Below are positions 6,988 through 61,671 of a stretch of 64,000 nt of DNA, piece by piece. Under the pieces are notes generated by a model, which was given only the letters and a program-made list of their open reading frames with translations, was not told the DNA's origin and made no database searches. Each line of letters begins with the position of its first letter. Positions within the stretch are counted from its first letter, which is position 1. Made by a program: the position numbers and the translations under genes. Source of the stretch: a virus; the IMG/VR virus record IMGVR_UViG_3300032286_001864, positions 1 through 64,000 of that record. The stretch is one strand, 5' to 3'.

Positions 6988-7878
6988 ATGGATGACTTCT
7001 CCAAGCGCGTTGATCGAACCCTGGTGCTGATTGAGCGCGGTCACGAGTCGTTTCCGCTGAGCGCGGTGCTGTGGTCGGGCGGCAAGGACTCCATGGTCCT
7101 GCTGCACCTGCTGCATGACCTCGGGTTCCAGCCGCCGGTGATCTTCTTTCGCGAGCCATGGCAGCCGCGCCGGTACTCCTTCCACGACAGATTGATCCGG
7201 GATTGGGGATTGCAGGTGATCTCCTGGCATCCGAGCCTGGTCGCCTTCCAGTCGCATGGCGATGAGTTCGAGCTGCAGAACATCTACCGGCTCAACGGCG
7301 GCAACTTCTCCTGCCCCACGGGGATCACGCACCGCGGCCCTGCCCCAGCCGGTAAGAACAAAGACGAGCCCTGGGTTTGCGCGGTCGACATGGCGTACCG
7401 GCCGACCCAGGAGCGACTAAAGATGCAGACACCGTTCCAGGCGTTCTGGGTCGGGCACAAGGAGTGCGACACCGATGCCGTGCTGGGCGGCCCGGCTGGC
7501 ACCAAGGTGGACGCCGTGATGCGCGTCGATGGGGCCATGGCTCTGTTCCCTTTGCGGGACTGGAGCGATGCGGACATCTGGCGCTATATCGAGGCCTACA
7601 ACGTGCCCTACGACCGGGAGCGTTACCGGCTCATGGATCCGCTGCTCGGGCACCCGGTCGAGGATCCGGATCGCCGGCACAACATTGACTACGTGCATGC
7701 CTGCACGGCGTGCATCGATCCTCGGCCGGGCGCCCCTGAGTCCGTCTACTGCCCGAAGCTCGATTGCACGATCGCCAACTGCTCAGAACTGGTGCCCTGG
7801 ACGGAGCCAGTGAGGCCGAAATACATGGCCGAGAGGGAGCAGGAATCACTGCCTAGAATCGGCGCAGACTCGAAGTAG
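6988..7878 (+). CDS. PAPS reductase-family (adenine nucleotide alpha hydrolase-like) protein
   Basis: The PP-loop SGGKDS is at residues 30-35, the ATP-pyrophosphatase signature of PAPS reductases, ATP sulfurylase subunit CysD and DndC. Other family marks are the PLRDWSDADIWRYI segment near residue 190 and a Cys cluster in the last third (CTAC, then three more Cys), which could bind metal or an Fe-S cluster. Length (296 aa) suits the family. Phage copies have been linked in general to sulfur chemistry or DNA modification, but the substrate cannot be told here. It lies four bases after one presumed virion gene and seven before another, unusual company for an enzyme. Confidence 0.85.
   Translation: MDDFSKRVDRTLVLIERGHESFPLSAVLWSGGKDSMVLLHLLHDLGFQPPVIFFREPWQPRRYSFHDRLIRDWGLQVISWHPSLVAFQSHGDEFELQNIYRLNGGNFSCPTGITHRGPAPAGKNKDEPWVCAVDMAYRPTQERLKMQTPFQAFWVGHKECDTDAVLGGPAGTKVDAVMRVDGAMALFPLRDWSDADIWRYIEAYNVPYDRERYRLMDPLLGHPVEDPDRRHNIDYVHACTACIDPRPGAPESVYCPKLDCTIANCSELVPWTEPVRPKYMAEREQESLPRIGADSK
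7854..7859 (+). promoter_or_regulatory. -10-like element TAGAAT
   Basis: The sequence GCCTAGAATC inside the end of the PAPS-reductase-like gene is 26 nt before the ATG at 7886. The same GCCTAGAATC word recurs at 22306. Confidence 0.5.
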
Positions 7879-10828: not shown

Positions 10829-12373
10829 ATGGCAGACCTTGCGCTTGCCAGGGCACACAAACGCTCTGGGCGTCTCACGGCGCGGCGCGTCCCTCAGTCC
10901 AAGGCCGACTTTGAAGTCGTCAGCGAGCGCGTCAAGCTGGCTCGTGACGATTTTGGCGTTTTCTGCACTGCGATGGGCAAGCCGCCGGCGCCGCACATGC
11001 TGGAGTGGCACCGAGAGCTAATTACCGGCAACAGTAATGAGCACCTGCTTGATATTGCAGGGGCTGATGAATGCTTACTAAGTCCGAGAGGTTCAGCCAA
11101 AAGTACAGTCATTGGCCTGCTTTGTGCTTGGTGTATCGGACGTCATACTCTAGCAAAGAAGTTATTACGAATCCTTTACGTTTCATTCATTGTCGACGTC
11201 GCCCGGGGCAAGAGCGCCGCGATCAAGAACACGATCCTCTCCGAGGCCTACCAGGAGATCTTCCCCTGCGTGCGGCTCTCCAAGACTCGCACCAGTGACG
11301 AGCTCTGGTCGATCGACTTCGAGCACGCCGAAATCGACATCCGCGGGGAGGACGCCTTCACGCTGGCCTGCGCGGGCCTTGCCGGTGCGATCACCTCAAA
11401 GCGATCAAACCTGGTCATCCTCGACGACTTGATCAAGTCCAAGAAGTCGATCGAGAACCCGGAGATCCGCCGGGAGATGGAAGCCAACTGGAACAGCGTG
11501 ATCGTTCCGACCATGTTCCAGGGCGCCCGGGCGATCGCCTTGGGCACTCGCTTCCACTTCGACGACGTGTTCGCAACGACCTTCATTGAGCGCAACGGCT
11601 GGAAGGTCATGATCCAGGCGGCGCTGATGTTCGACGACGAGGGCGTGCCCCGCTCGTATTGGCCGGAATGGTGGTCTCTCGAATACTTGCAGGACCTGCA
11701 GGAGAAGGATCGGGTCTCGTTCGCGTACCAGTACATGAACCGTGCGGTGCGCTCGACCGAGCTGGGTATCTCGCCAGATCTGTTCATTCGCGGCCAGATC
11801 CCCGATCAATTCGACTTAATTGGCGTCGGCATGGACCTCTCCTCCGGGATGAAGGAGCGCAACGACTACACCGTTTTCATGCTGGGCGGCTTGGACGGGG
11901 ACACCTTCTACATCATCGACAAGCGGCGGATCAAGACGATGGGAAACATCGAGAAGGTCGAGGCCCTCTGCGAGCTGCTGCACGAATGGAACCTGCTGGG
12001 GCGCGACCCGGATGGCCGCTACCTGCCGACCGGCTCGGACGTGACGATCTGGCCGGAAGCCGTCGCCTACCAGAAATCGTTCGAGGGCGACTTCAAACGG
12101 ATTGCGCATCAGGAGTCGAGCCTGGTCCGCGAGCCGCTTTTCAACCTGCGGGTCCGGCCGGTTACTGGAGTCCGCGGGGACAAGCTGGCTCGCTTCCGCG
12201 GTGTTATGGGCTTGTTCGAGACCGGCAAGGTCGTCTTCAATAGGTACCGAGACTTCCGCGTGGTCTTCGACGAGGTCGTGAACCTGGGCAACTCCCCGCA
12301 CGATGACTGCGCTGACGCCCTGCAGATTTTGCTAGATCAGGGGTCCCGGCGCGGCAAAATCCACATTGAGTGA
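10829..12373 (+). CDS. terL: Terminase large subunit
   Basis: ATP-driven DNA packaging motor and nuclease. The Walker A motif is SPRGSAKST (residues 85-93) and Walker B is LVILDD (195-200). A C-terminal RNase H-like nuclease begins at GVGMDLSSG (Asp336), with the late acidic pair in SPHDDCADAL near residue 495. At 514 aa it has a normal length. The ATG at 10829 is preceded by a TACGCT -10-like element only 6 nt upstream. A 59-nt gap separates it from the portal gene. Confidence 0.92.
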   Translation: MADLALARAHKRSGRLTARRVPQSKADFEVVSERVKLARDDFGVFCTAMGKPPAPHMLEWHRELITGNSNEHLLDIAGADECLLSPRGSAKSTVIGLLCAWCIGRHTLAKKLLRILYVSFIVDVARGKSAAIKNTILSEAYQEIFPCVRLSKTRTSDELWSIDFEHAEIDIRGEDAFTLACAGLAGAITSKRSNLVILDDLIKSKKSIENPEIRREMEANWNSVIVPTMFQGARAIALGTRFHFDDVFATTFIERNGWKVMIQAALMFDDEGVPRSYWPEWWSLEYLQDLQEKDRVSFAYQYMNRAVRSTELGISPDLFIRGQIPDQFDLIGVGMDLSSGMKERNDYTVFMLGGLDGDTFYIIDKRRIKTMGNIEKVEALCELLHEWNLLGRDPDGRYLPTGSDVTIWPEAVAYQKSFEGDFKRIAHQESSLVREPLFNLRVRPVTGVRGDKLARFRGVMGLFETGKVVFNRYRDFRVVFDEVVNLGNSPHDDCADALQILLDQGSRRGKIHIE

Positions 12374-12432: not shown

Positions 12433-14634
12433 ATGGCCCAGCAAGACACCGGACGCTTTGAGCAGATCCTCGAGGCGGCTCGCGAACGGAAGAGCGACAA
12501 CGGCGCCGACACGACAATCGTGTCCGGGCATCTTGCACAGATGCGGCTGTTCATGCTCCGGCAGGGCATCGAGTTCTACCCCAGGGCCGACACTTACGGA
12601 TTCCGGCACCCGTTCCTTGAGAAGCTGATCGAAGAGAACGAGATCGATCAGCGGCTGGAGGGCATCACTGATGACTTCATCGCTCGGGGCAAGGGGTTGT
12701 GGTTCTTCCGCCCGGTCGGCAACAACTACCGCATCATGTGGTTTGGCCGTGACGACTATAAGGCGTACTACGACTCCGACCTGCAGCTCGAAGAGCTTGA
12801 CCTGATCTATTCCTTCCAGTCCCGGGCCAACGTGGGGGCTCCGGCTCTGCAGCAGCCCGGAGGGGCCAAGAAACAGTACGTCCGGTTGTCGGTCAAGCGG
12901 GATCAGATCGTCGAGAGCATCTCGGACGAGAGGCCGACATTCGATACGCCGCTCCCGGTCGACACTCTCACCGGCCGGCGCCGGACGACCAATAACTCGT
13001 TGGGGTTCGTCCCTGCTATCGAGGCCTTCAATTGGATGCGCTCGACCGGCATGGACGCCACGGGCGACTTCGCTGGACTTGAATCGCACATCCTCAAGCA
13101 CGACCGGCTGGTCCGGAACATCGGGGACAACATCAACTTCTTCGGGAGCCCGACTCTCGTCTCGAGCCGACCTAAGAGCGACCTGGTCGAGGCCGGTGAC
13201 GGCGCTTCCGCTCAGCGACCGACGATCAGCAGCCGTGCGGGCTTCTCCTCAGAGGATCGCTCAAGCACTCGCTTCTCCTTGACCGGTGCGCCGACACTGG
13301 ACGGAAGCGTCAGGGTGCCAAGGCTGATTGCCAATCTTGAGTCAACGGACCGGGTCCAGTACATCTCGCCGAATGCCGTCACCGGTGACCAGAACCTCTA
13401 CGCCCGCCAGTACCGGGAGGAAGTGCGCACGGCTCTCGGGGGCGTCGATGAACTGGGCATCAGCTCCGGCGCTACGGCCTACGAGATCAAGAGCCTCTTC
13501 GGGCGGGCGGCGACTACGGCCCTTCGTAAGTGCCGGGGGCTGCTGACCTACGGGCTCTGCAAGCTGCTGAGCCTGGTGATCTACAACGAGGAGCGGATCT
13601 TCCGCGAGAGCTTCTCGATGGCGGTGAACGTCTTGCCGCCGGATGCTCCGATGAAGGAAGACTTCGAGGGCGACGACGAGGCCTTCTCCGCCGCTGAAGA
13701 GAAGTACCGGGCCGGTTATGCCAAGTATCTGGACAAGCTGGATGCCGCGATCGGGAAGGCGATCGAGAAGCAGGAGTTTCCGCCGGGAGTGGTCGGGCTG
13801 ATCCCGGACGGGGATCGCCGGATCGAATGGCGCTGGAGAGGGCCGGTGTTCGAGGAGTCGACCGAGGACATCCTGAACAACTCGATCGTCGTCCGGAACC
13901 TACAGGAACTCGGGGTCAACTCAATCGAAGCCCTGCGCTACCTGTTCCCGAGCAAAACCGACGAGGAAAGGAGCGCTATGCTCAATGGGTACCCATTCAG
14001 GCTGGCTCAGGCGACGCAGCAAAGCATTGCGACGTTCCTGAACCTCATAGGATCGATGCGGCAAATACCGCATCCTCAAGCGCCCAATCTGCCACTCATC
14101 GCAGACGCCAGGCTCGACCTGACACCCTTCCTCTACCGAACCTTTGATTTCCTCAAGCGGGAGCTGACTTATGCAGGACAGTTTGGTGATGCCCCAGGCT
14201 CAGGCGACCCCGCAGAGCTCGATCCCATCCAACGTGCCCGCGTCAATGCAGGCCGCCCCGTCGATGCAACAGGCGCCGATCGGGCAGCCTTCGTACCCGA
14301 CGCAGCCCAGCTATCAGCAGCCCGCACCGCCGGCCCAGGATCCATGGCAGGCGGCGTACAGCAACCTGGCAGGTCGTTTGAGCGCGACGCCCCAATACCA
14401 GCCCCAGGAGCCCTCATGGGCACCGACCCTATCGGGAAGCGCCTACCAGGCTCCCTACCCTTCGGCCGTTCCCAGCTACCCCCCGGCATACAGTTCGGCG
14501 ACGCCGACCTACGCGCCCCAAGCAATGCCGGCGTATTCGCCGAGCTTGCAGAACGCGTGGCCAAGCGCCCCGAGCGCACCAGTCGCCCAGCACGCTCAGG
14601 GCGTCGACGGGTACCTCGACAACGTCAGCAATGA
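12433..14634 (+). CDS. Portal protein
   Basis: Large (733 aa) protein immediately after the large terminase, the canonical portal position. It is a mixed alpha/beta protein with a DNA-translocation-like core; the segment around residues 380-430 is helical and hydrophobic, and 430-470 is acidic. The last about 155 residues are Pro/Ala/Arg-rich and basic at the end (RPARSGRRRVPRQRQQ). That part lies over the beginning of the next gene in another frame and may be a late overprinted extension. A large podovirus-type portal is my reading; no short diagnostic motif exists. Confidence 0.75.
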   Translation: MAQQDTGRFEQILEAARERKSDNGADTTIVSGHLAQMRLFMLRQGIEFYPRADTYGFRHPFLEKLIEENEIDQRLEGITDDFIARGKGLWFFRPVGNNYRIMWFGRDDYKAYYDSDLQLEELDLIYSFQSRANVGAPALQQPGGAKKQYVRLSVKRDQIVESISDERPTFDTPLPVDTLTGRRRTTNNSLGFVPAIEAFNWMRSTGMDATGDFAGLESHILKHDRLVRNIGDNINFFGSPTLVSSRPKSDLVEAGDGASAQRPTISSRAGFSSEDRSSTRFSLTGAPTLDGSVRVPRLIANLESTDRVQYISPNAVTGDQNLYARQYREEVRTALGGVDELGISSGATAYEIKSLFGRAATTALRKCRGLLTYGLCKLLSLVIYNEERIFRESFSMAVNVLPPDAPMKEDFEGDDEAFSAAEEKYRAGYAKYLDKLDAAIGKAIEKQEFPPGVVGLIPDGDRRIEWRWRGPVFEESTEDILNNSIVVRNLQELGVNSIEALRYLFPSKTDEERSAMLNGYPFRLAQATQQSIATFLNLIGSMRQIPHPQAPNLPLIADARLDLTPFLYRTFDFLKRELTYAGQFGDAPGSGDPAELDPIQRARVNAGRPVDATGADRAAFVPDAAQLSAARTAGPGSMAGGVQQPGRSFERDAPIPAPGALMGTDPIGKRLPGSLPFGRSQLPPGIQFGDADLRAPSNAGVFAELAERVAKRPERTSRPARSGRRRVPRQRQQ

Positions 14635-15133
14635 GTCGCTGGAGGTCCTCCAGCACTTCGGCGGCGAAGCTCCGGCACTGCTGAACAAGTACGCCTGCGC
14701 CGTTGAGGATGCTTTGCTGGTGCAAGCGCAACAAAGTGCCGAGTCTCTGCAGCAATTGCAGCAGCTGCACGGCAACCTGCAGCAGCTGGAGCTTGCGTTG
14801 AACGCAACCCTGGAGGATAACCAGGCCTACAACCTGTTGACCACGAACCCCGACCTGCTTGCCGACTACGTCAACGAGTTCTTCGGGCCCAATGGTCCCG
14901 CTCCGGTGGAGCTGCCCCAGGATCGCCTCGAGGCCGAGGTCGCCGCTCGCAATCCCGGCTATCAGCGCCCGCAGATGGATATGCCAGCCCCTGGCTACCA
15001 GCCCGCTCAGAACTCCGAGTTCTGGGGCACCTTCTCGCAGGTCGCCGAAAAGCAGCCCGATCAGCTCTGGCGCCTTCTTTCGCAGGCCCCCGCTGAAGCC
15101 CTGCGCGGCAAGCTGCTGATCTCTGATTCCTGA
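14171..15133 (+). CDS. Putative scaffolding/head protein overlapping the portal gene
   Basis: Residues 1-155 are Pro/Gln/Tyr/Ser-rich (QPSYPTQPSYQQPAPP), clearly disordered. Residues 160-260 are a Leu/Gln/Ala helix with coiled-coil character, and the C-terminus is charged. This layout and its place between portal and capsid suit a scaffolding protein. The ATG at 14171 follows an in-frame TGA by one codon and has a GGGAG Shine-Dalgarno element 8 nt upstream, so the 464-nt overlap with the portal frame is not an artefact of over-extension. Confidence 0.7.
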   Translation: MQDSLVMPQAQATPQSSIPSNVPASMQAAPSMQQAPIGQPSYPTQPSYQQPAPPAQDPWQAAYSNLAGRLSATPQYQPQEPSWAPTLSGSAYQAPYPSAVPSYPPAYSSATPTYAPQAMPAYSPSLQNAWPSAPSAPVAQHAQGVDGYLDNVSNESLEVLQHFGGEAPALLNKYACAVEDALLVQAQQSAESLQQLQQLHGNLQQLELALNATLEDNQAYNLLTTNPDLLADYVNEFFGPNGPAPVELPQDRLEAEVAARNPGYQRPQMDMPAPGYQPAQNSEFWGTFSQVAEKQPDQLWRLLSQAPAEALRGKLLISDS

Positions 15134-18628: not shown

Positions 18629-19222
18629 TCATTTGTCTGTGGACTGGATCAAGGCACGGCCATGTGAGCTGCCAAGACGCAGCGTATGTCGCATGGAGCG
18701 ATGGACCAGGGGCCTCAAGCAGGACGCAAGGTCGTGCATCTGTTGCGGGCCAAAGCGGATGATGGGCCTCGTGCCAGGCAAGAGGGACGAGGCGACACCC
18801 AGTTGCTGGATCGCATGATTGACGAGTGCGGCTTCGTCTGATGAGTCAAGCCAAATCTCGCCGCTGCGGCAGATCCAGCGGCCACGATCAAGCCAAAGGC
18901 ACGCAATGCCCTGGGCTCCGGCGACCTGGAGGGCCTCTTCATTGATGCCGCCTTCGAGGATCTCGACGGCTCTTTCCAGGTACGGTGATTGGATCCGTAC
19001 GCGGCGGAGGTCGTAGTACCCCCTGCCGGAGATGTCGTCTTCCTCGACACGGATTGGTTGACGAATCGAGCGCCTCAGCGCGCGGACTTGGTGCTCAAGG
19101 TATGTGGCCTCGGTTTCCAGGCGGCGCATTTCCAACCATGGTCGCTGGCGAACCCCTTTGCGGCACAGTTGTCCGATCCCGAGCGAGTAGGCGACGGCCA
19201 GGCTGACGAAGCTTGCCGTCAT
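18629..19222 (-). CDS. Degenerate LAGLIDADG-type homing endonuclease-like protein
   Basis: 197 aa. Residues 10-45 align with a first LAGLIDADG motif and its following strand (SLGIGQLCRKG, then WLEMRRLETEATYLEHQ), but the catalytic acid is replaced (LGIG instead of LGDG, Ile16). The second motif is LWLDRG near residue 110, with its acid kept, after the usual 'SP.LE...IL' linker. The C-terminal half (IRFGPQQMHDLASCLRPLV) matches the neighbour's (LLFGPEQATRLREALRPHA). Probably nuclease-dead or repurposed. The start overlaps the neighbour's stop (ATGA). Confidence 0.6.
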   Translation of the reverse strand: MTASFVSLAVAYSLGIGQLCRKGVRQRPWLEMRRLETEATYLEHQVRALRRSIRQPIRVEEDDISGRGYYDLRRVRIQSPYLERAVEILEGGINEEALQVAGAQGIACLWLDRGRWICRSGEIWLDSSDEAALVNHAIQQLGVASSLLPGTRPIIRFGPQQMHDLASCLRPLVHRSMRHTLRLGSSHGRALIQSTDK

Positions 19223-19917
19223 TGCCAGTCCGGAGCGAATAGGTGTGCCCTACTGGAAGGAGCATGCGGCCTAAGCGCCTCCCGCAGACGCGTAGCTTGC
19301 TCAGGCCCGAAGAGAAGGCGAGGTGAGCCCGTGCTCCTTCCTGCCTTGAGCCGGGGGTACATCGCGGTCGAGGCCGCACCGGTGAGGGATTCAAGCCAGC
19401 TGCTGACGATCCGCGCTTCTCCTTCGGTTTGACCGACCCGGCGCAGAAGGATCCCCTGGTCCATGAAGGGCCTTGCGCCCTCAGCCCAAAGCCAGGCTGC
19501 TGCCCTTGCATCGAGGATTTCAAGCGCTGGCGATGTGATCTCACGCTCGCCGCAGGGGTAGAGGAGGTTGTAGATCAGGAGCAGCTTGTCCGACGTGAAA
19601 CGGAAGCGGAGCACGGTTGTCGAGCGACCCGATTCGCGCTGCTGGGTTCGATAGGGAGTAATGCGCGCCGTCGTCGGCACCCAGCGGCGAATCTCTTCGG
19701 CCTTCTCCTCCAGGAAGCTGCGCTCGCTCTCGCCGCCGTGCATTGCCGCGGTGATGCGTTCTTTCGTTGGCGTGCGACTGCGGACTAGGCAGCCGTCTGC
19801 CAGCAGCACGCCAAGCACTCCCCGTACGCCCTGTGTGTTCAATTTCGCCACATCGCTGCCGCTAGCGTAAGGCCTGGCACGCAACCCGCGCGCTTTATCC
19901 CTCATCGCTCGGAGCAT
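19219..19917 (-). CDS. LAGLIDADG homing endonuclease
   Basis: The frame is open into the capsid gene, but the first sensible ATGs are at 19917 and 19905 (232 or 228 aa). Motif 1 is GVLGVLLADGCL (Asp41 from 19917) and motif 2 is AAWLWAEGARP, both with the acidic residue kept, separated by about 110 residues as in single-chain LAGLIDADG enzymes. It cuts long DNA targets to promote its own spread. It is divergent from the capsid gene with only 8 nt between the two start codons, a usual target locus for mobile endonucleases. Confidence 0.75.
   Translation of the reverse strand: MLRAMRDKARGLRARPYASGSDVAKLNTQGVRGVLGVLLADGCLVRSRTPTKERITAAMHGGESERSFLEEKAEEIRRWVPTTARITPYRTQQRESGRSTTVLRFRFTSDKLLLIYNLLYPCGEREITSPALEILDARAAAWLWAEGARPFMDQGILLRRVGQTEGEARIVSSWLESLTGAASTAMYPRLKAGRSTGSPRLLFGPEQATRLREALRPHAPSSRAHLFAPDWQ
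19863..19868 (+). promoter_or_regulatory. Candidate promoter of the capsid gene inside the divergent endonuclease gene
   Basis: GCTAGCGT resembles the GCTAGCAT elements elsewhere and points at the capsid gene, with a 57-nt leader. It lies inside the N-terminal codons of the minus-strand endonuclease gene. Confidence 0.3.
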
Positions 19918-19925
19918 TTCTTCCC

Positions 19926-21068
19926 ATGTGGGTCGATAATGATTTCCCGAAGGTGCTGGGTGCCGAGCTCTACCGGCCCCATCCCGCCTACGTGATCGAA
20001 ATGGCCGTGGACCCCGTTGTGGTCCATGACTTCGGTGCGCAGCCCGGGCAAACGGTGCAGCTGGATCGGTACCGCTATTGGGGGAATCCTGGCACCAAGG
20101 ATTCCCGCGAGCGCACCGCTGATCAGACCATCGGCACAAGCTCCTCTCGGAACATCGTCAAGGAAAAGGTCCCTGTGACCCTTAAGGAGTACACGGGTCC
20201 TGCCGACCCGCAGAACTCCAGTCAGGCGAGCACCTTCAAGGTCGCTCGGGAAACCCTGATCACTGCTCAGCGCCTGCTGATTGACACAGCGTCCCTGCCG
20301 GTCTTCCACCAGAGCATCGGTTCGATGACCCTGCTGGACGACTATCGCCGCTGGCGCGATCGCGTCTTCGCGGACGAGCTGTTCAAGGCCGAGGCCAACG
20401 GGAAGTCCGACTCCGTCCAGGGCGGCTACTACTTCCCCAAGAGCAAGACCAAGACGGGTGTCACCGTCGCGGCGTACGACGCGAACCAGTCTGCCAAGTT
20501 CGGCGTGAAGGATGACCTCCTCGAGGTCGTTCTGCAGCTGCGCAAGCGCAACGTGCCGACCTTCGCTGATGGGAACTATCGAGCCATCCTCGATCCCACC
20601 GCGATGAAGCACATGCGGCAGGACTCCGACTTCCGCGAAGTGGCCCGCTATCCCGGCTCCGGGATGGTTGACCCCAGCCAGCCGTACCTCGCTCCTAACG
20701 CCAGCTTCTACACGGGCATGGGCCCTGGCTACGGCCAGGCCGGCTTCGTGGCAGGGCAACCTGTCATGCCGACCGGCTTCGTGTTTGAGGGCGTTCGCTT
20801 CTTCGAGTCGACCAACCTGCCCGAGAAGTCGTTTACCGCAACCATTCCGGTGACCGGTAACAGCTCCTCCGCTACCTATGAAGCAGCCCCCCTGCTGTTC
20901 TTCGGGATGCAGGCAATCGGTGTCGGCATCGGTGGCGAGAACGCTCAGATCCTGCTGAACAACAACGACGACTTCAGTCGTTTCATCATCATGATCTGGT
21001 CGCTGTACGCCGGTTTCGAGATCCTGAACAGGGATTTCGTGACGGTTGCATACTCTTTCGTCTACTGA
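19926..21068 (+). CDS. Major capsid protein
   Basis: 380 aa. Segments such as LDRYRYWG, RLLIDTASLPVFHQSIG, DDYRRWRDRVF and AILDPTAMKHMRQDSDFREV look like an HK97-fold capsid protein of the N4/P22-like branch, from memory of such proteins rather than a diagnostic motif. It follows the scaffold gene cluster, apart from the inverted island, and precedes a decoration-type protein, which supports the call. The ATG at 19926 lacks a clear Shine-Dalgarno element, surprising for so abundant a protein. Confidence 0.7.
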   Translation: MWVDNDFPKVLGAELYRPHPAYVIEMAVDPVVVHDFGAQPGQTVQLDRYRYWGNPGTKDSRERTADQTIGTSSSRNIVKEKVPVTLKEYTGPADPQNSSQASTFKVARETLITAQRLLIDTASLPVFHQSIGSMTLLDDYRRWRDRVFADELFKAEANGKSDSVQGGYYFPKSKTKTGVTVAAYDANQSAKFGVKDDLLEVVLQLRKRNVPTFADGNYRAILDPTAMKHMRQDSDFREVARYPGSGMVDPSQPYLAPNASFYTGMGPGYGQAGFVAGQPVMPTGFVFEGVRFFESTNLPEKSFTATIPVTGNSSSATYEAAPLLFFGMQAIGVGIGGENAQILLNNNDDFSRFIIMIWSLYAGFEILNRDFVTVAYSFVY

Positions 21069-24160: not shown

Positions 24161-24682
24161 GTGAGTAGCACGAGTACGAACAAGCAACCCCTGCTGGTTG
24201 ATCGCCCTCTTCACCGGTGGGCGACGCTTGGCCCGACTGCGGCGCTGACGAGCAACGCGAACTACTCGACGATCGTCGGCGGCGGCTGCGTTGAGCTGGT
24301 GAGCTGCATCGACAACGATGGGGCCGTCATCGACAGCCTCTCGGTCGTGGCGATGCAGGCCGGGACGACTGCTGTGGTTGTTCTGTTCTTCTTGAGCACC
24401 TCCTCGACGACCTTTGGGATCACGGACGCCAATACGTCCCTGGTCGCCTCGGTGACGGTCGGCTCTACGACAGCTGGTGAGCGGACCAATGTCGCCCTGC
24501 CTCCGCTGACGGTTCCGGTCCCAAGCCTGGGAGGGCAGGCGTCGCCGACGGAGACCTCCAAGAAGAACACTGGTCTCTACATCGAGAAGAGCCAGGTGCT
24601 CTACGTGGGGCTGAACACCGCGATCCTGGCCCCCAGCCCGGCCACGAAGATCACGGTCTTTGCCCAGGGCGGCAACTTCTAA
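24161..24682 (+). CDS. Putative tail or head structural protein (173 aa)
   Basis: Starts with GTG (MSSTSTNKQPLLVDRPLHRW). Beta-rich with many Thr/Val/Ser, no charged helices, as expected of a small jelly-roll or tail-tube-like fold. TAATG overlap with the next gene (24680-24684) shows coupling. Family unknown. Confidence 0.6.
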   Translation: MSSTSTNKQPLLVDRPLHRWATLGPTAALTSNANYSTIVGGGCVELVSCIDNDGAVIDSLSVVAMQAGTTAVVVLFFLSTSSTTFGITDANTSLVASVTVGSTTAGERTNVALPPLTVPVPSLGGQASPTETSKKNTGLYIEKSQVLYVGLNTAILAPSPATKITVFAQGGNF

Positions 24683-26112
24683 TGCCCGGCGGGTATGGCC
24701 GCAGGGTCGACGGCAGCAGTCCCGGCGGGTCTGTCGGGCGCGTTGATCGCCCCATGAAGCCGCGCTCGCCGGGCTCAAGCCGCACGGCAGACCGGGCGCC
24801 GCAAGGGACGGGTGGAACGATCTATCCGACCGTGATCGAGGCTTACAACCGCGACAGCGATTACAAACGCTGGCGGGCCGGGGCGGACTACTGGCAGGGG
24901 AGCGGCCAGGGCTGGAGCGACATCGAGCAGTTCTACCTGGTGCGTCTGTTCAGGGACCTTGGCACCGACCCGGGGCCGCAGCTGGTGAGTGCCACGTACT
25001 TCCCCAGTGACAGCTCTCCAGACTCTTCGTGGGTCGTCACCTGCCGCCGCCGAGGAGCGGTGATCTTGCCGCAGCTGTTGCGCCAGGAGGACATCGTGCT
25101 GGATACGAGTCATCCGAACCCTGAGCGGCATCGGCTCATCCTTGATGTGAGTCAGACGCTGAGCAGTGAGCAGCTCGATACCTGGCCCCTGCTGATCGGT
25201 GATCAGTTCGAAGACTCGGCGACCGGAACGGGCTTCCCCTCTGGCCTGATCAAAGAGCCGATCGACACGATCGCTTACACGCTGGCAGAGGTCGACAAGG
25301 GCGGCGGCAAGCTGCTGTTCGACCTCTCGCGGCCCTTCATGAGGAGCCGGCCTAACAGCGAGATCCCTCGTGCGTTCTGGGGCCGCGTTCAGTACGACAG
25401 GAAGTTCCCGATGTCATGGCGGAACAACGGCACTCGCTACCTCTGCAGCAGCCATCGGTTCTATTGCAGTTGCCCCGACTTCAGTGGATACAGCACGGCA
25501 AGCCTCCAGGGGGAACAGAGCGCAAGCCAGGCGCTGTTCCCACGTCCTTCTGCCGGGCGAAGGACAGGCAGCACCTGGGAGCGCGGCAGCGTTGGGTACC
25601 TGCGCAGATGGCGGGACCTGTCGTTTCGTGTCGACCAGCGGCGGGAGTGCAAGCACATTCACGCGACGCGTTGGTCGGTCGCCTATCCCTTCTACGAGCC
25701 CAGCGATTACGAGGTCGGCAACAGTGAGCGCCATTTCACCGGCGGAGCGATCGGCCCTCTGCACACGGGCAAGGTGATGCGGTATCACCAGCAGCGAGGG
25801 CTGACGTTGGATCGCCTGGCTCCAGCGCTGGCCGACGCTATCGGGGTCCTTCTCGATGCTGGAGAGACGGTCTCGCTGGACGAGGAGGCACCCGCCCAGC
25901 CCGGCAGAAGGCCCGTACTTTGGACAACGGAGCGCGAGCCCGCCGCGTTTAGGGCCGTGTCCGATGACTGGTGGCTGCAGATCGGAACGGCAACACTGCG
26001 GGTGTTCGATCCGGCGATGCAGAGGTTCGTCGAAACGAAGGTTGTCGACGGACAGAGGGTTCCTGTTGTTCAGCTGGCGGGAGCCACCGATCTGGTTACG
26101 GCAGGGGGCTAA
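24682..26112 (+). CDS. Tail-region protein with a SWIM-type zinc finger
   Basis: 476 aa. The N-terminal 45 residues are Gly/Ser/Arg-rich. Residues 250-330 contain CSC at 262-264 (FYCSCPDF) and CKH at 323-325 (RRECKHIHA), the CxCxnCxH pattern of SWIM zinc fingers, normally used for DNA or protein binding. The rest is mixed alpha/beta with no second motif. Neighbours are structural, so a virion protein with a zinc-stabilised domain is likely, though a DNA-contacting role cannot be excluded. Confidence 0.65.
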   Translation: MPGGYGRRVDGSSPGGSVGRVDRPMKPRSPGSSRTADRAPQGTGGTIYPTVIEAYNRDSDYKRWRAGADYWQGSGQGWSDIEQFYLVRLFRDLGTDPGPQLVSATYFPSDSSPDSSWVVTCRRRGAVILPQLLRQEDIVLDTSHPNPERHRLILDVSQTLSSEQLDTWPLLIGDQFEDSATGTGFPSGLIKEPIDTIAYTLAEVDKGGGKLLFDLSRPFMRSRPNSEIPRAFWGRVQYDRKFPMSWRNNGTRYLCSSHRFYCSCPDFSGYSTASLQGEQSASQALFPRPSAGRRTGSTWERGSVGYLRRWRDLSFRVDQRRECKHIHATRWSVAYPFYEPSDYEVGNSERHFTGGAIGPLHTGKVMRYHQQRGLTLDRLAPALADAIGVLLDAGETVSLDEEAPAQPGRRPVLWTTEREPAAFRAVSDDWWLQIGTATLRVFDPAMQRFVETKVVDGQRVPVVQLAGATDLVTAGG

Positions 26113-26118
26113 TTGCCT

Positions 26119-26150
26119 GCCAGAATGAGCGGATTGAAAGCTTTGGCGTG
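26119..26150 (+). promoter_or_regulatory. Conserved 5' leader shared by two tail-appendage genes
   Basis: The bases before the GTG at 26148 (a GCCTGCCAGAATGAGCG block, then ATTGA and AGC..TGGC) match the leader of the minus-strand paralogue before 17680. CAGAAT could be the -10 element. Confidence 0.5.
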
Positions 26151-28409
26151 CCGTTCTCGCAGTATCTGGCCTCGAATCTGCTGAATTGGCATCGGCGTAT
26201 AGGGATGCCAACGCCACCGGCGGCGATCTATATCTCCCTGCATATCGGCTCGCCAGGGAGGAGCGGCACGCAAGGTGATGTCACGGTTGGCTTGATCAGG
26301 ACTCGCGGGGTCATCAAGGCAGCTGACTGGAGTGCGCCGATGACGAGCCGACAGGGGGACACCTGGCTGTTTGTGATCACCAACCTGGTCGTCGTGCCGC
26401 TGGCGACAAAGGCAGGCGCAACGGTGACCATCTCACACTTCGGCTGCTGGGATGCCGAGCAGGGAGGCAACTTCCTCAATCACGGCACGATCGCAGGACC
26501 GTTCACGGTGATCGCTGGTGATGCTGTCCGTTTTCCGCCCGGCAGCTTGATCATCCAGGTCCCATCACCGGCGGTGTTGTTCCCGGTGGCGATCCTCAGT
26601 GGTCCTGCCTTGATGCAATTGCTACCGGCGGGGACGTTGACCAGAACGGCCGACCCTTGCGCTCCGGGCGCTGTGACAGTGCCCGCCTTTACGTTACCCG
26701 CAAACCCTAATACAATAACACCTGATGATACCATTCGTACTTTTGGCTTCCAGTTTATAACAACCATTGATCGGGTGCTCAAGAAGGTTGGGATCTACGC
26801 TTGGACAACAACTGCCCACAGTATCGGCATCTGGGATTTTACACCAAGCTCCCCTCAGCTGCTATGGCAGAAGCAGATACTCCTGTCGGACCCATACATC
26901 CTTGATCAGGGGTTCCGCTGGTATGACGGACCTAACTTGATCCTAAGGGCAGGGAGGTTCTATGCGATTGCAGCAACCTGGAGTGGGCCTGATCCGATCC
27001 CGGCTCAGCTTAATCCGGTTGTTGGCGATGCAGTTACCAACATAGCCAATTTCTCGCTAAACAATACCGCCGTGCGGATAAACGGTCCTCTTCCATCGTC
27101 GCACCTGACCGACTTGAACGCATTCGCCCCGGCAGGGACCTCCGGCACTGATAACAAGGGGTATTACACGGTTAACATGCAGCTCTCTGACTGTATCCCA
27201 ACCGCCCCTTGTGATCCAGGTTACCCGACAGTGCCCACCTTTACGTTACCTGCAAACCCCAGCACAATAACACCTGGCTCAGCAGTTCGTGTTTTTGGCT
27301 ATAATTTTGATACGGAAATTGATCGGGTCGTCAAAAAAGTTGGTATTTACGCTCAGACAGCAAGGGATCACACTATTGGCATCTGGGATTTTACAGGCGC
27401 TCCCCAGCTGCTATGGCAGAAGCAGATACTCCTGTCGAACCCATACATCCTTGATCAGGGGTTCCGCTGGTATGACGGACCTAACTTGATTCTAAAAGCG
27501 GGGAGGCGTTACGCAATTGCAGCAACCTGGGGCAGTAGCGAGCCTGTGCCCGCTGGAGTAAGCCCAGGTGACATTGCGGTCAACATAAACCGACTGAGCT
27601 TGAACGACAGTGCAAGAAGAGTGCCGGGAAACCCTCTGCCGTCGTCATACCTGACCGACCTGAACGCCTTCCCCCCGGACGGGACTTCCGTCACTGATAA
27701 CAAGGGGTATTACACGGTTAACATGCAGCTCTCTGACTGTATCCCAACCGCCCCTTGTGATCCAGGTTACCCGACAGTGCCCACCTTTACGTTACCCGCG
27801 AATCCCAGGACAATAACGCCTGATAATAACATTCGTGTTTTTGGTTTTGCTTTTAGTACAGGGATCAACCGTGTGATCAAGAAGGTTGGTATCTACGCTC
27901 AGACAACAACTGACCATAGTATCGGCGTCTGGGATTTTTCCGCCACTCCGCCCCGGCTGCTATGGCAGAAGCAAATCTCCTTGTCGGACCCGTACATCCT
28001 TGATCAGGGGTACCGCTGGTATGATACGCCCGACATCTTGCTACGAGGCGAACTCCCTCCCAGCATCCTGTCTCGTTACGTGATAGGAACAACCTGGGCT
28101 GGCGAACCGATCCCCGCTCAGCTTGATCCGGCCTACGGAATCGCAACCATCAATATACTTAATTTCTCATTAGACAACACCGCGAGGATTGCATCGGGAA
28201 GCCCTCGACCATCGTCGCATCTGACTGACCTGAACGCTTACCCCCCGGCTGGTACCTCCGGCACTGATGAAAAGGGGTACTACACGGTTAACATGCAGCT
28301 CTCTGACTGTGTTCCTGAGTCACTGCTGTTCCCACAGAAGACCCTCTATGGCTCTGCCTTGATGCAAGCCCCGGCGGCGGGGACGCTGACGAGGATCCGC
28401 CCGGCTTAG
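26148..28409 (+). CDS. Long tail fibre with N-terminal adaptor domain and three tandem repeats
   Basis: The frame opens at 25971, but the GTG at 26148 starts a sequence matching the paralogue at 17680 (MPFSQYLASNLLNWHRR), so 753 aa. Residues 1-130 are the adaptor domain. A GPALMQLLPAGTLTR motif follows. Then come three repeats of about 183 residues, each with FTLPANPxTITP, KKVGIYA, LLWQKQI, DQGFRWYD and GYYTVNMQLSDC. The last residues repeat the SALMQAPAAGTLTR motif. Repeats are beta-rich, probably jelly-roll domains that form the shaft or bind host glycans. Confidence 0.75.
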   Translation: MPFSQYLASNLLNWHRRIGMPTPPAAIYISLHIGSPGRSGTQGDVTVGLIRTRGVIKAADWSAPMTSRQGDTWLFVITNLVVVPLATKAGATVTISHFGCWDAEQGGNFLNHGTIAGPFTVIAGDAVRFPPGSLIIQVPSPAVLFPVAILSGPALMQLLPAGTLTRTADPCAPGAVTVPAFTLPANPNTITPDDTIRTFGFQFITTIDRVLKKVGIYAWTTTAHSIGIWDFTPSSPQLLWQKQILLSDPYILDQGFRWYDGPNLILRAGRFYAIAATWSGPDPIPAQLNPVVGDAVTNIANFSLNNTAVRINGPLPSSHLTDLNAFAPAGTSGTDNKGYYTVNMQLSDCIPTAPCDPGYPTVPTFTLPANPSTITPGSAVRVFGYNFDTEIDRVVKKVGIYAQTARDHTIGIWDFTGAPQLLWQKQILLSNPYILDQGFRWYDGPNLILKAGRRYAIAATWGSSEPVPAGVSPGDIAVNINRLSLNDSARRVPGNPLPSSYLTDLNAFPPDGTSVTDNKGYYTVNMQLSDCIPTAPCDPGYPTVPTFTLPANPRTITPDNNIRVFGFAFSTGINRVIKKVGIYAQTTTDHSIGVWDFSATPPRLLWQKQISLSDPYILDQGYRWYDTPDILLRGELPPSILSRYVIGTTWAGEPIPAQLDPAYGIATINILNFSLDNTARIASGSPRPSSHLTDLNAYPPAGTSGTDEKGYYTVNMQLSDCVPESLLFPQKTLYGSALMQAPAAGTLTRIRPA
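26674..28320 (+). repeat. Three direct repeats of about 549 bp inside the fibre gene
   Basis: Units at about 26674-27223, 27224-27770 and 27771-28320. Long stretches are identical at base level between units 1 and 2, so duplication was recent or is kept alike by gene conversion. Unit 3 is more diverged in its centre. Base composition is more AT-rich than the flanks. Confidence 0.8.
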
Positions 28410-56743: not shown

Positions 56744-57564
56744 GCGTGGACCAGAAGCTTCTGGCCTATGTTAGAAGGAACAATCGGAGCCTCCTCCTTG
56801 TCGAGCCCCAGGGCTGCAAGCTCCTTCTCGCGGGCAAGGATCTGGTAGTAGTCGGCAACACGCTGGGTCCACTTGTAGCGCCAGGCGTGGAGCTCATGGC
56901 CGCGGAGCAGGAAGCTCTGAGTGATGCGCGGCGTGGTCACCAGGATCTGGGCCATCTCGACCGAGATCCCCAGGGTTTCTTCGAGGGCGATCGCATAGGC
57001 GCCCAGCTGGAGGGCGCACTTGTTGAACTTCATCCAGCCGCCGTAATGCTCCCTGGGGACACCGTTCTCCTCGCCCTTGGGGAAGTAGCGGCAGTAGGGG
57101 CCGTTGCTGGACTTGACGTCAGCGAGAACGACGATGCCGCCGCGGACGCCGACGATGTCGGGACAGCCGCAGTATCCGTGCTGGTGAGACCAGATCCTGG
57201 AGATGCCATCGTCCCCGATACAGAAGTTCCACTCAGGCCGTAGCGGCTTCTCCGACCAGGTGAAGTAGTCGTAGGAGTCGAGGTGGGGAGCTACTCCGTT
57301 CCAGTAGGGCAGGATCTCATCGGGGATTTCGACAGCTTTGCCACGAAGATGGTCTTCACAGGCCTTGTGGATGATTGAACCGCGGTTGGCAGCGGCTTCC
57401 TTGCCGCCCGGGTTCTTGATGTTCCACTGCTCGAGGGTTTGCTTGGAGCGGGCGCTGGCGGTCTTACCCAGGATCGCAGTGACAGAAGGGTAGGCGCAGT
57501 CTGGCCGGTCACCCGTCCGATAGTGGCGAACACCATCGATTTCGAAGCGGGTTGGCCGTTTCAA
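56740..57564 (-). CDS. PD-(D/E)XK exonuclease
   Basis: 274 aa, TTG start at 57564 with GAGAGG upstream. Motifs of the RecB/Cas4-like nuclease family: RGSIIHKACE (GxxxH, Gly62 and His66), GCPDIVGV (Asp136), VLADVKSS (Asp149, Lys151) and KCALQLGAYAIALE (QxxxY). These residues bind the metal and cut DNA ends. It probably supports phage recombination or host DNA breakdown, upstream of an SSB and clamp group. Confidence 0.82.
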   Translation of the reverse strand: MKRPTRFEIDGVRHYRTGDRPDCAYPSVTAILGKTASARSKQTLEQWNIKNPGGKEAAANRGSIIHKACEDHLRGKAVEIPDEILPYWNGVAPHLDSYDYFTWSEKPLRPEWNFCIGDDGISRIWSHQHGYCGCPDIVGVRGGIVVLADVKSSNGPYCRYFPKGEENGVPREHYGGWMKFNKCALQLGAYAIALEETLGISVEMAQILVTTPRITQSFLLRGHELHAWRYKWTQRVADYYQILAREKELAALGLDKEEAPIVPSNIGQKLLVHA

Positions 57565-57584
57565 TCTCGCCTCTCTTTACAGAG

Positions 57585-57590
57585 AATGTA
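57585..57590 (-). promoter_or_regulatory. -10-like element TACATT, minus strand
   Basis: TACATT is 20 nt before the TTG at 57564, in an 82-nt gap that follows the upstream stop. Confidence 0.35.
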
Positions 57591-57646
57591 GCGAGACCTG
57601 AGAGACGCAGGATGAGAGAGCAGCGGGTTCGCCGCTTTGGCTGCGA

Positions 57647-58084
57647 TCAGCCGTTGGACTTGATGTCGCCGAAGTTGGCTTCCAGGTAGTCAAGAGCGCC
57701 TCGTTCGCCTTGGTAGGCGTCGAGAGTGCGCAGGAGCTGGCGGGCCAAGACAGCAGCGCCCTTGGTCATCTCCTCGAGGTAGTCGCCTTCCTTTGGGCGA
57801 GTGCCATCGATGCGGTCACCAAGGATCGGCCCCAAGATGGCGGCATAGACCATCACCAGGGGGCTGACCTGGTAGGCCTGGAAGGACGAACCCCCGGACG
57901 TGAAGCCTTCCAGTAGCCGAGCAACATCGGCCAAGCTCCGGGCGATCTGCTCTTGCCGCTCCCCCTGCTGGTGACCCAGAGCAAGGAGAGCGGAGAGCTG
58001 TTCACGGATCCTCGTCAACTCGCTCAGCTCGGTCGGAACGGGCTTCGGGGAGAGGCCCTTCGGGGTTGGTGATGACGGTTCCAT
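57647..58084 (-). CDS. Hypothetical protein (145 aa)
   Basis: Pro/Ser-rich N-terminus, then a helical stretch (ELTRIREQLSALLALGHQQG), then VSPLVMVYAAILGPILGDRI, a hydrophobic segment, and a helical acidic end. Start overlaps the 3' part of the gene at 58002 by 83 bases in another frame. Unknown. Confidence 0.55.
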   Translation of the reverse strand: MEPSSPTPKGLSPKPVPTELSELTRIREQLSALLALGHQQGERQEQIARSLADVARLLEGFTSGGSSFQAYQVSPLVMVYAAILGPILGDRIDGTRPKEGDYLEEMTKGAAVLARQLLRTLDAYQGERGALDYLEANFGDIKSNG

Positions 58085-58280
58085 CGAATAGCCGGCAGAT
58101 GTGAAGAGCGCCGCGCTCAGCAGGGCTCAGCTGCTGCCAAGCCCTGTTGACGCTCTCATGATCATGGCGCTCCTGAAGAGCCCTGACATCAGAGCTTCGG
58201 GTGGCACGCTGCAGGGCAAGCAGGATCGACGGATCGTAAGACAAGGATGGCAGTGAGGTTGTGGGGGCAAGACATGGCAT
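58002..58280 (-). CDS. Small hypothetical protein (92 aa)
   Basis: ATG at 58280 (MPCLAPTTSLPSLSYDPSIL). Helical Arg/Leu/Ala middle (LLALQRATRSSDVRALQERH) and a Pro/Glu/Arg tail. It overlaps both neighbours by about 90 bases each in different frames, so the exact ends are uncertain, but its composition is protein-like. Confidence 0.45.
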   Translation of the reverse strand: MPCLAPTTSLPSLSYDPSILLALQRATRSSDVRALQERHDHESVNRAWQQLSPAERGALHICRLFDGTVITNPEGPLPEARSDRAERVDEDP

Positions 58281-58563
58281 GGTCGTCGATGGTGCCGTTT
58301 TCGAGCCCTCGAACAAAGAGGACGTCTCCTTCTGCTAGGAGCCGGCGAAAGGCTGCGATCACCTCGTCTGCAACAGCAGTGGACGGGACGAAGAGGACTT
58401 GGGCGTAGGCTTTCGCCCCTTCCTTGCTCGGATGAGCTACCGGAACGGAAAAGGAAGGTGAGCCAAGCTGCAGCAGCAGGACTGCGCAAAGATCGTCTGC
58501 GTCAGGGCGCAGGGGCAGGTCTTGCCAGGTTGAATCCAGCGCAGGCATTGCTTTTGTAGACAT
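58189..58563 (-). CDS. Hypothetical protein (124 aa)
   Basis: Begins MSTKAMPALDSTWQDLPLRP. Mixed alpha/beta (DDLCAVLLLQLG, AKAYAQVLFVPSTAVADEVI). No family is recognised. The ATG follows a long leader with an eleven-base U tract and a stem-loop further upstream, unusual for this genome. Confidence 0.55.
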   Translation of the reverse strand: MSTKAMPALDSTWQDLPLRPDADDLCAVLLLQLGSPSFSVPVAHPSKEGAKAYAQVLFVPSTAVADEVIAAFRRLLAEGDVLFVRGLENGTIDDHAMSCPHNLTAILVLRSVDPACPAACHPKL

Positions 58564-58572
58564 GAATCTGCT

Positions 58573-58583
58573 AAAAAAAAAAA
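58573..58583 (-). promoter_or_regulatory. Eleven-base T tract in the 5' leader (minus strand)
   Basis: Reading toward the ATG at 58563, eleven T lie 10-20 nt upstream, with TACTCT (58598-58603) about 34 nt upstream as a possible -10 box. Transcript slippage could occur here. Confidence 0.4.
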
Positions 58584-58631
58584 GTTTTGAATTTGAAAGA
58601 GTACCCTGTGAGCGGGCACTGTGAAGCGTTC

Positions 58632-58660
58632 GGGGTGGACTTCGGGGGAAGTCCGACCCC
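58632..58660 (-). terminator. Stem-loop after the SSB-like gene
   Basis: Arms GGGGTGGACTTC and GAAGTCCGACCCC pair with one bulge around a short G loop, 20 bases after the stop at 58681 (minus direction). It has no U tract next to it. Attenuator or RNA-stability element are alternatives. Confidence 0.45.
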
Positions 58661-58680
58661 TTAAGTGAAGTAACTCCGAG

Positions 58681-59370
58681 TTACCAGCCCGCAGCAGGAA
58701 GTTCCCTTCCACCGGCGATCTCCTCGTCGGCGCCCAGCTCATCGCGGCGGGTCATCGGTTCCTGGGAGGGGGCCTTTGATCCGGCGGGGCGGCCTTCGAA
58801 TGGATCGCCGCCCTCGAAGAGCGCTGGCAACCACATGTGATCAGCCCGGGCGTGCCAGTGCTTGGTCTCAGCAGCTGACGCCGCCTTGAGAACCGGGGTG
58901 ACGTCGTACTTGGTGTCCAACTTCTGGCCGCGACGGGTGATCGTCAGATAGAAGTTGGCCATCTCGCCGTTCTCGATGGTGTAATCCTCGATGTTGAGAA
59001 TCGCTTCGATGGCTTCGCGGACCTTGAGCTGAGTGATGTCAAAGACCTGGTAGTCGTCGGCTTCCTTGCGCTTGCAGGCCCAGGCCAGGAAAAAGGTAGG
59101 AACGGCCTTTTCGGTGCCGCCGCTCTTCTTGGCGTCATAGGTCAGACCGATGTCGTCCATGTACGACTTGGGGAAAGTCGGGAAACGCCGGGGCTTGCCT
59201 TCCATCGTGAAGTACTGGTAGCCGGCAATGCAGTGACCGCTATCGCCCGTGCCGCAAAGGCGTATGGTCGTGCTCTCGCCGTCAGCGAGCTTCTTGAGCT
59301 CGAAGTATTTGGCGGGAACGGCGGGGTCTTCTTGGTTGGTGGCAACGTAGTTGGAGGGGAAGATCGACAT
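58681..59370 (-). CDS. Putative single-stranded DNA-binding protein (229 aa)
   Basis: ATG at 59370 (MSIFPSNYVATNQEDPAVPA). Contains AKYFELKKLADGESTTIRLC, FTMEGKPRRFPTFP and FLAWACKRKEADDYQVFDIT, then NFYLTITRRGQKLDTKYDV, a layout resembling the OB-fold ssDNA-binding proteins of several phages that lack a close E. coli SSB relative. The tail is acidic/Pro-rich, as in many SSBs. Neighbour of a clearer SSB and a clamp-like gene, which supports a replication role. Confidence 0.55.
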   Translation of the reverse strand: MSIFPSNYVATNQEDPAVPAKYFELKKLADGESTTIRLCGTGDSGHCIAGYQYFTMEGKPRRFPTFPKSYMDDIGLTYDAKKSGGTEKAVPTFFLAWACKRKEADDYQVFDITQLKVREAIEAILNIEDYTIENGEMANFYLTITRRGQKLDTKYDVTPVLKAASAAETKHWHARADHMWLPALFEGGDPFEGRPAGSKAPSQEPMTRRDELGADEEIAGGRELPAAGW

Positions 59371-59416
59371 CGGGTTGGAAGGATTTGCGAAAGGGATGAA
59401 AAGGAAGTAGCTGTTG

Positions 59417-60094
59417 CTACCAATTGGTGGGGCAATCGTCGGGCTGGCCTTGGAAGGATTCGTGGCTGTAGCCAACAGCGCTTGTGCCAGCAGCTGGATT
59501 GCTGCTCTTGGAGCCGCGGTGAACGCGAACAAAGCGGGCCTTGACCTCGACGTAGGGTGTGCCATCGGCGCTGGTCATCTGCGTGAAGCAGCCGTTGATC
59601 TCGACAAGAGCGCCGACGTCGGCGGCGCTCAGGCGATCCTTGGTGAAACCGAAAGCGCGGATGGAGAACCAGTCGGTGACTTCGACGGGCTCAGTGGCCT
59701 CCGGGTCTGGGCTGCGGAAAAAGCGATTAACGGCGACCGAACGCCTCGTGGACTTGCCGCTTTCGGCGTCCTTGGCGGTGCTGCCGATACGGCCGACGAT
59801 GACGACCTCGTTAAGGTACTGGTCGTCACCGGCGGGCGAGATCACAGCCGTGGTGATGATCGGCACGTCGCCATCGGGTTGCACGAGGGAGGCTTCCCCG
59901 GAGGCAATCAGGCGGTCACCGGTGTCCTTCTCGGCTAGGGCCTTGGCGGCGACGCTGTCTGCGTAGGCCCGCACGAGGACGGCGATGGGTTCCTGGCCGC
60001 AGATGACAGCTGAGGCGGCCAGATAGTCCCTGCCGTCGAAGGAGCGGACAGCCGGCTTCTCGTTCAGAGCAACGATTGATGAGGCATAGCTCAT
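59417..60094 (-). CDS. OB-fold SSB-like protein (225 aa)
   Basis: ATG at 60094 (MSYASSIVALNEKPAVRSFD). Residues 95-205 hold an SSB-like OB fold: LNEVVIVGRIGS, RRSVAVNRFF, TDWFSIRAFGF, GALVEINGCFTQM and YVEVKARFVRVH. The first 80 residues may be another strand-rich domain. Ser/Pro/Asn/Gly-rich tail, but no DDDIPF end. It would coat single-stranded phage DNA in replication. A TATGCT element lies 23 nt upstream. Confidence 0.68.
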   Translation of the reverse strand: MSYASSIVALNEKPAVRSFDGRDYLAASAVICGQEPIAVLVRAYADSVAAKALAEKDTGDRLIASGEASLVQPDGDVPIITTAVISPAGDDQYLNEVVIVGRIGSTAKDAESGKSTRRSVAVNRFFRSPDPEATEPVEVTDWFSIRAFGFTKDRLSAADVGALVEINGCFTQMTSADGTPYVEVKARFVRVHRGSKSSNPAAGTSAVGYSHESFQGQPDDCPTNW

Positions 60095-60827: not shown

Positions 60828-60881
60828 GCCCAGCATGCAAGCCCTGTCCTGCAACTGCTGGTTTCGCCAAGCGGCCCTTCG

Positions 60882-60887
60882 TAGGAT
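60882..60887 (+). promoter_or_regulatory. -10-like element TAGGAT with near-leaderless start
   Basis: TAGGAT is only 3 nt before the GTG at 60891. If it is the promoter, the transcript would begin within the coding sequence, so translation might start further downstream. Confidence 0.3.
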
Positions 60888-60890
60888 TGC

Positions 60891-61094
60891 GTGAGTGCAC
60901 CGGCATGGCTGGCGATGGGAGCGGAGGCGATCGTTGCTTTAGGGGCCTTGGGGTGCTCCGGCGTCGTGGCACTCTGGAAGATCGCCAATGGTCTCGGGCG
61001 TTTTGAGGCAAGGACCGGGACGATCCTCGAGGGGATCCAGAAGATGCTGGGGGACCACGAGGCTCGGCTAAGGGACCTGGAGAGCGACCGCTAG
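60891..61094 (+). CDS. Small membrane protein (67 aa)
   Basis: GTG start. One membrane helix (GAEAIVALGALGCSGVVALW), then a charged coiled-coil-like helix (LGDHEARLRDLESDR). Resembles small phage membrane proteins such as holin or lysis accessories, or a replication-complex anchor. Function unknown. Confidence 0.5.
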   Translation: MSAPAWLAMGAEAIVALGALGCSGVVALWKIANGLGRFEARTGTILEGIQKMLGDHEARLRDLESDR

Positions 61095-61240
61095 TCCGCT
61101 AGCCGTGTAGCGCAGAGGACCTTGCGCATGCAGGACAGGTCGCTAGCCTGAACGCGGTTGTGATCACCCGGGGAAGCGCGCTGCGTGAAGCGGCAATCGA
61201 GCCCCGGGTCCGCGACCCTTACCCATCATGAGGTCCGGCC

Positions 61241-61618: not shown

Positions 61619-61643
61619 TCTCACTCGCCACTTAAGGCACATG

Positions 61644-61671
61644 GCCCCCGGTTCACCGGGGGCTTTTGTTT
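61644..61671 (+). terminator. Intrinsic terminator
   Basis: GCCCCCGG and CCGGGGGC pair perfectly around TTCA, followed by TTTTGTTT. It ends the short plus-strand unit. Confidence 0.9.

Follow-up and report, generated by a model that had tools for sequence, protein, structure and literature searches.

An out-of-frame overlap of 464 nt between the portal gene and a probable scaffold gene in a relative of Synechococcus phage S-EIV1

The Nu3 scaffold of phage lambda starts inside the upstream head-assembly gene C by internal initiation. Embedded or overlapped gene architectures are also found in the Rz/Rz1 two-component spanins (PMC6139136). Among 5,976 surveyed virus reference genomes, overlaps longer than 50 nt were common in dsDNA phages as annotated, and 84% of overlaps were shorter than 50 nt; the longest overlap shared at 95% nucleotide identity was 185 nt across families and 112 nt across genera (PMC7017920). 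In phage P22, the scaffold combines a long-helix column with a base domain and a C-terminal hook, its N-terminal loop is unresolved, and the C-terminal barrel of the portal is unstructured in the procapsid (PMC12005531). Out-of-frame overlaps are already known; a portal-scaffold pair of the sort described here is not known to us.

The window analyzed herein comprises positions 1 to 64,000 of a virus record of 81,948 bases and comes from a relative of Synechococcus phage S-EIV1. The portal gene (12433..14634, + strand) encodes 733 aa, matches phrog_20475 (virion structural protein, E 4e-164), and adjoins the terminase large subunit gene (10829..12373, + strand; phrog_38, E 8e-72; Terminase_6C). 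The window portal and the S-EIV1 portal are 42% identical. The following gene (14171..15133, + strand, 320 aa) lies in the +1 frame relative to the portal and is a probable scaffolding-protein gene by synteny with S-EIV1. The two ORFs share positions 14171..14634 of the + strand, as the first-pass annotation had reported, and these 464 nt encode portal residues 580-733 and scaffold residues 1-154. The portal tail had been given as 155 residues; the tail is indeed shared, and the count is 154 residues plus the stop. The 154 portal-tail residues consist of 16% A, 13% G, 13% R, and 12% P, and the 154 scaffold N-terminal residues of 19% P, 17% A, 14% S, 14% Q, and 7% Y. The proposed internal initiation site (14160..14173, + strand) is formed by GGAG at 14160-14163, a 7-nt spacer, and ATG at 14171-14173. 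The scaffold frame reads TGA (14165-14167), CTT, and then this ATG, which agrees with the earlier description of a frame opening one codon past an in-frame stop with a ribosome site. On sequence evidence, the 464 nt most probably represent a genuine, long-maintained out-of-frame overlap of two virion-assembly genes, the downstream one probably a scaffold and internally initiated. The probability of this reading is put at about 0.88. Dual coding, with the scaffold starting within the portal gene, had been proposed by the first-pass annotation, and both frames are kept and selected in relatives, as detailed below.

It could be argued that the portal frame alone is real, that the scaffold starts after the portal stop, where the S-EIV1 annotation places it, and that the GC-rich composition leaves the +1 frame open by chance. 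The window was examined with the portal protein held fixed. When the synonymous codons of the tail itself were shuffled, none of 2000 trials left the +1 frame open; when codons were drawn from portal usage, 9.5% of the redraws did. With the scaffold protein held fixed, the portal frame remained open in 13% of shuffles and 6% of redraws. The single window sequence, at 67% GC, provides moderate evidence for dual coding.

The comparison across relatives provides strong sequence evidence for dual coding, far beyond chance. Relatives were gathered from IMG/VR virus contigs and GTDB genome contigs, which gave 253 different judgeable overlap sequences from S-EIV1-like phages. Of these, 252 keep both frames open with the register unchanged at +1, and their overlaps measure 443-662 nt (554 nt in the isolate S-EIV1). 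These include genomes with about 56-60% GC in the overlap, for many of which the chance of an open +1 frame is near 0-1%. All lineages of a 39-taxon portal-core tree have the overlap, down to about 44-50% protein identity, and so does the divergent lineage of L041, L046, and L348. Control counts for the other frames came from 184 divergent representatives, of which 2 have an open third sense frame and 0, 2, and 10 have the respective antisense frames open.

The start of the scaffold frame is conserved as well. The start codon is ATG in 201 relatives and GTG in 52, and it falls exactly at the homologous place in 238 of 243 sequences. A stop codon stands one codon before it in 193 of the 253, and a purine-rich SD-like tract precedes it in nearly all. 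In about 50 different sequences of the L026-like clade (for example, L026 4521), the scaffold frame starts with a GTG placed one codon downstream of the position that ATG occupies in the other clades, and this GTG is preceded by the tract TAAGGAGTTAAGTTACA. These features bear on a further alternative, in which a portal-scaffold fusion is made by +1 frameshifting, beside or instead of internal initiation. The frames do differ by +1, so that a shift anywhere in the overlap would fuse the ORFs. However, a conserved start codon with an SD-like tract lies exactly where the second frame opens, and a stop lies immediately upstream of that start, which makes a fusion very unlikely.

The first-pass annotation had named relatives with one frame interrupted and the other kept as the pattern that would speak against dual coding. 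Only 1 of the 253 sequences is broken, and there both frames are broken. This exception, L105 (5640-6330), lacks 56 nt present in L093, and the deletion brings its portal tail into the reading frame of the scaffold start codon. It may be a mutant or an assembly error.

Selection was analyzed in 97 sequence pairs sharing no sequence, with portal-core nucleotide identities of 74-96%; not all of the pairs are phylogenetically independent. The divergence at portal third positions was 0.117 in the overlap versus 0.327 in the single-coding portal, which is 2.8 times slower. Scaffold wobble positions similarly diverged by 0.156 in the overlap versus 0.331 outside. The rate was 0.066 at sites nonsynonymous in both frames, 0.130 at sites silent in the portal only, and 0.191 at sites silent in the scaffold only. 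The rate at sites silent in both frames was 0.552, versus 0.614 at comparable portal-core sites; such sites are few (about 250), and the comparisons near the window contain few of them. Since these sites diverge about normally, the slowdown is not due to a low local mutation rate. The sliding profile of divergence changes at the overlap boundaries.

A raw dNN/dNS-type ratio is unsafe here, because it departs from 1 even for an unused frame, being 0.79 in the portal core. Pseudo-frame controls were therefore run. The portal dNS/dSS was 0.35 in the overlap, and the control, the portal frame in the single-coding part of the scaffold, gave 1.13. The scaffold dSN/dSS was 0.24 in the overlap, versus 0.75 for the same unused frame in the portal core. 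The bootstrap intervals of the overlap ratios and of the controls do not overlap, and the purifying pattern is visible in every third of the overlap. The dN/dS comparison across relatives, suggested earlier as a check, thus points to purifying selection on both frames. A chance open frame in GC-rich DNA was ruled out by the relatives, the other-frame control, and the substitution pattern. The reading with a real portal frame only is already largely refuted, as it accounts neither for the slow portal third positions nor for the scaffold ratio and the conserved start with its SD-like tract, and it is regarded as extremely improbable.

The reverse alternative is that the scaffold frame alone is real, ribosomes on the portal gene terminate or shift before the tail, and the tail is unused. 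The scaffold frame is in fact somewhat more constrained than the portal frame within the overlap, and the portal tail is predicted to be disordered. Both the portal tail and the scaffold N-terminus show looser constraint than the ordered parts of each protein. However, the portal-tail ratios of 0.35-0.51 are set against 1.1-1.4 for the pseudo-frame, and the portal frame has no stop in 252 of the 253 sequences. The tail also keeps the invariant residues R603, P656, G659, G689, and D692. Its C-terminus is conserved as basic, with a mean net charge of +6.4 over the last 25 residues and a charge of at least +4 in 98% of the sequences. An unused tail is scarcely credible on these data. The scaffold N-terminus has a mean net charge of -6 and hardly any K or R. 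The opposition of charge between the two tails is partly built in, because, in this register, a portal arginine codon of the CGN type leaves the scaffold only G, A, V, D, or E.

AlphaFold2 models of the portal and of the second protein were built with alignments of relatives. The portal model is ordered to about residue 576-580, with its last long helix at 564-580, and is mostly disordered from residue 577 to the end at 733. The scaffold start codon falls at portal residue 580. The scaffold model, which is weak (pTM 0.23), is disordered over residues 1-153 except for a short helix at 58-71, followed by a long helix at 154-225 and C-terminal helices at 282-319, and the portal stop falls at scaffold residue 155. 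In these models, the shared DNA encodes almost exactly the predicted disordered part of each protein. The portal model matches the solved portals of SaPI1, phiCD508, SPP1, T7, lambda, and P22 with Z of 16-20. The match to the SaPI1 portal has Z 20.1 and an rmsd of 4.2 A over 299 residues, and all 50 of the matches listed in the fold search are portals or portal-containing complexes. The name portal, given earlier from the sequence, is upheld by this fold match at Z 20.

The portal C-terminal part had been suggested as the newer of the two frames. This suggestion finds no support, as all lineages found have both tails and the codon usage conflicts. By codon usage, the portal tail looks like the older frame in 140 of 166 representatives, and in the window's own high-GC genome the result is the reverse, against the portal tail as the older frame. 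The overlap cannot be polarized, because every lineage found has both tails. A tblastn search (E up to 10) of 50,697 phage records found no outgroup without the overlap, S-EIV1 being the only credible relative among them. The greater constraint on the scaffold frame does not establish age. Overprinting at some point is very likely.

The downstream gene is probably the scaffold, as suggested by gene order and predicted helices. The 320-aa protein gave no family or profile match to known scaffolds; scaffolds diverge quickly, and a match is not strictly required. In the window, the major capsid protein (MCP; 19926..21068, + strand; phrog_1357, E 5e-19; 67% identical to S-EIV1 60859-61989) lies 4.8 kb downstream of the second gene, with other genes between them. 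The missing family match and this separation would also fit a different protein of the inner head (for instance, an ejection or core protein), with the dual coding left standing. On the other side, the order in S-EIV1 is terminase, portal (57537-59840), this gene (to 60264), a gene of 158 aa, and MCP (60859-61989), so that the gene directly follows the portal and stands one gene before MCP. The predicted long helix and C-terminal helices resemble those of the P22 scaffold (PMC12005531), and no alternative scaffold candidate was seen adjoining MCP. Another inner-head protein is thus a possible, but rather unlikely, identity, and a scaffold is the preferred one.

The S-EIV1 record (KJ410740.1) starts the post-portal gene at 59863, past the portal stop. 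The conserved scaffold start lies about 576 nt upstream of this annotated one (KJ410740.1 59287-59863, corresponding to L001 5751-6327). The S-EIV1 annotation is corrected accordingly, as about 190 residues of the probable scaffold are missing from the record. The shorter product from 59863 could also be made. In the same record, the segment 60784-62010 (L417) holds an MCP homologue in an intact + strand ORF (60859-61989), 67% identical to window 19926-21065; at this site the record instead lists one ORF on the minus strand and a shorter one on the + strand.

Other genes were observed in the window. A LAGLIDADG homing endonuclease (19222-20139, - strand; Pfam E 4e-6) lies between a peptidase/endolysin gene and the capsid gene. 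The listed ORF reaches into the start of the capsid ORF, so the endonuclease probably begins at a more internal codon. The ORF at 18632-19222 (- strand) resembles this neighboring homing endonuclease and has no Pfam match. A PAPS reductase domain protein at 6988-7875 is a possible auxiliary metabolic gene. Two + strand ORFs, 24682-26112 and 25971-28409, overlap by 142 nt; the second starts from GTG and has a Gp80 fiber-type domain.

The single-coding portal segment just before the internal start (13855..14169, + strand) shows low synonymous divergence and strong predicted RNA folding, and its function can be suggested from these signals. In the four clades with several pairs, the synonymous divergence of the last ~100 single-coding portal codons is about half that further upstream. 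A third overlapping gene was ruled out as the cause of this constraint, as no other frame is kept open there. The third-position GC in the segment departs from the genome bias, going up in the AT-rich S-EIV1-like phages and down in the window's GC-rich clade. The mean folding z was -3.0 for the 300 nt before the start versus -1.0 for the preceding 300 nt, with codon shuffles restricted to each region and the regions differing in GC3. The window carries a perfect hairpin, GATGCGG-CAAATA-CCGCATC, at 14055-14074 (+ strand) inside the segment.

A structure of 29 pairs was derived from one clade of 30 sequences and so favors itself there; it is kept in 97% of the cells of that clade, and its score was reached in 0 of 500 shuffles. 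Covariation was seen in the 3' hairpin of this clade, with changes of C-G to U-A, U-A to A-U, and G-C to C-G. Elsewhere the structure is only partly kept (77% of cells on the cross-clade alignment). RNAalifold did not find a single consensus structure across all clades (5 pairs), and an Rfam search of the segment gave no match. It is tentatively proposed that these ~300 nt form a folded RNA control element governing scaffold initiation. The ~770-nt stretch would then encode two proteins together with a translational switch that sets the portal:scaffold ratio. By analogy, such a switch might possibly be autogenous, like the P22 scaffold gene, which is reported to be autoregulated (Wyckoff and Casjens 1985, cited in PMC5744158).

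A mechanism can be outlined from these observations. The portal would be read through to 14634, and ribosomes entering separately at the internal SD-like site would begin at ATG 14171 and translate the downstream gene in the +1 frame. Internal initiation would allow the scaffold to be made from the portal mRNA at its own rate, higher than that of the 12-copy portal, and the folded RNA just upstream may tune this translation. Both the portal tail, which is basic, and the scaffold N-terminus, which is net-negative and poor in K and R, would project into the procapsid lumen, and the 12-copy portal and the many scaffold copies may meet in the procapsid interior. The overlap would be confined to disordered segments because such segments tolerate codon compromise. 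Its persistence may be due to the absence of any need for a fixed fold in either tail and to the difficulty of undoing the overlap once both tails are needed.

These results describe about 500 nt read in two frames across a widespread group of cyanobacterial viruses, in two head-assembly genes and kept through the whole group diversity found. Hundreds of natural sequences become available for studying two disordered segments that evolve on one DNA. The results suggest that overlap is tolerated up to limits given by the order/disorder boundaries. It becomes testable whether the portal:scaffold stoichiometry is set by the overlap or by the upstream folded RNA.

Compared with known systems, the window pair is like lambda C/Nu3 in its internal start; unlike it, Nu3 is in frame with C and there is no dual coding. 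To our knowledge, no such portal-scaffold overlap occurs in the P22/SPP1/T7-type modules. In the literature searched, which comprised open-licence papers, no comparable portal-scaffold overlap was found. The portal-scaffold-coat modules of P22, SPP1, and T7 are like the window pair in gene order, portal fold, and the long helix and C-terminal helices, which are predicted for the window scaffold (PMC12005531 for P22). An unresolved scaffold N-terminus and, in the P22 procapsid, an unstructured portal C-terminus are further points of likeness (PMC12005531). The terminal overlaps of phiX174, such as A/K, are similar in that the same bases encode the 3' end of one gene and the 5' start of its neighbor (PMC8227390); however, phiX174 has a small ssDNA genome and the window phage a dsDNA genome of ~80 kb. 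Discussion of long dual coding usually centers on tiny genomes, and a phage of ~80 kb has no obvious need to save 500 bases. The portal/scaffold overlap of ~500 nt is kept down to ~45% protein identity, versus the 185 and 112 nt of the survey, the criteria of the two comparisons being different (PMC7017920). The Rz/Rz1 genes are like the window pair in being out of frame on the same strand, with cooperating products and an own start inside the upstream gene that annotators often miss, and in using the +1 frame in lambda, T7, and P2 (PMC6139136). Unlike the window pair, they encode a lysis lipoprotein and a membrane protein and do not serve virion assembly; the spanins also show several architectures across phages, whereas the portal/scaffold overlap has one architecture in all relatives found (PMC6139136).
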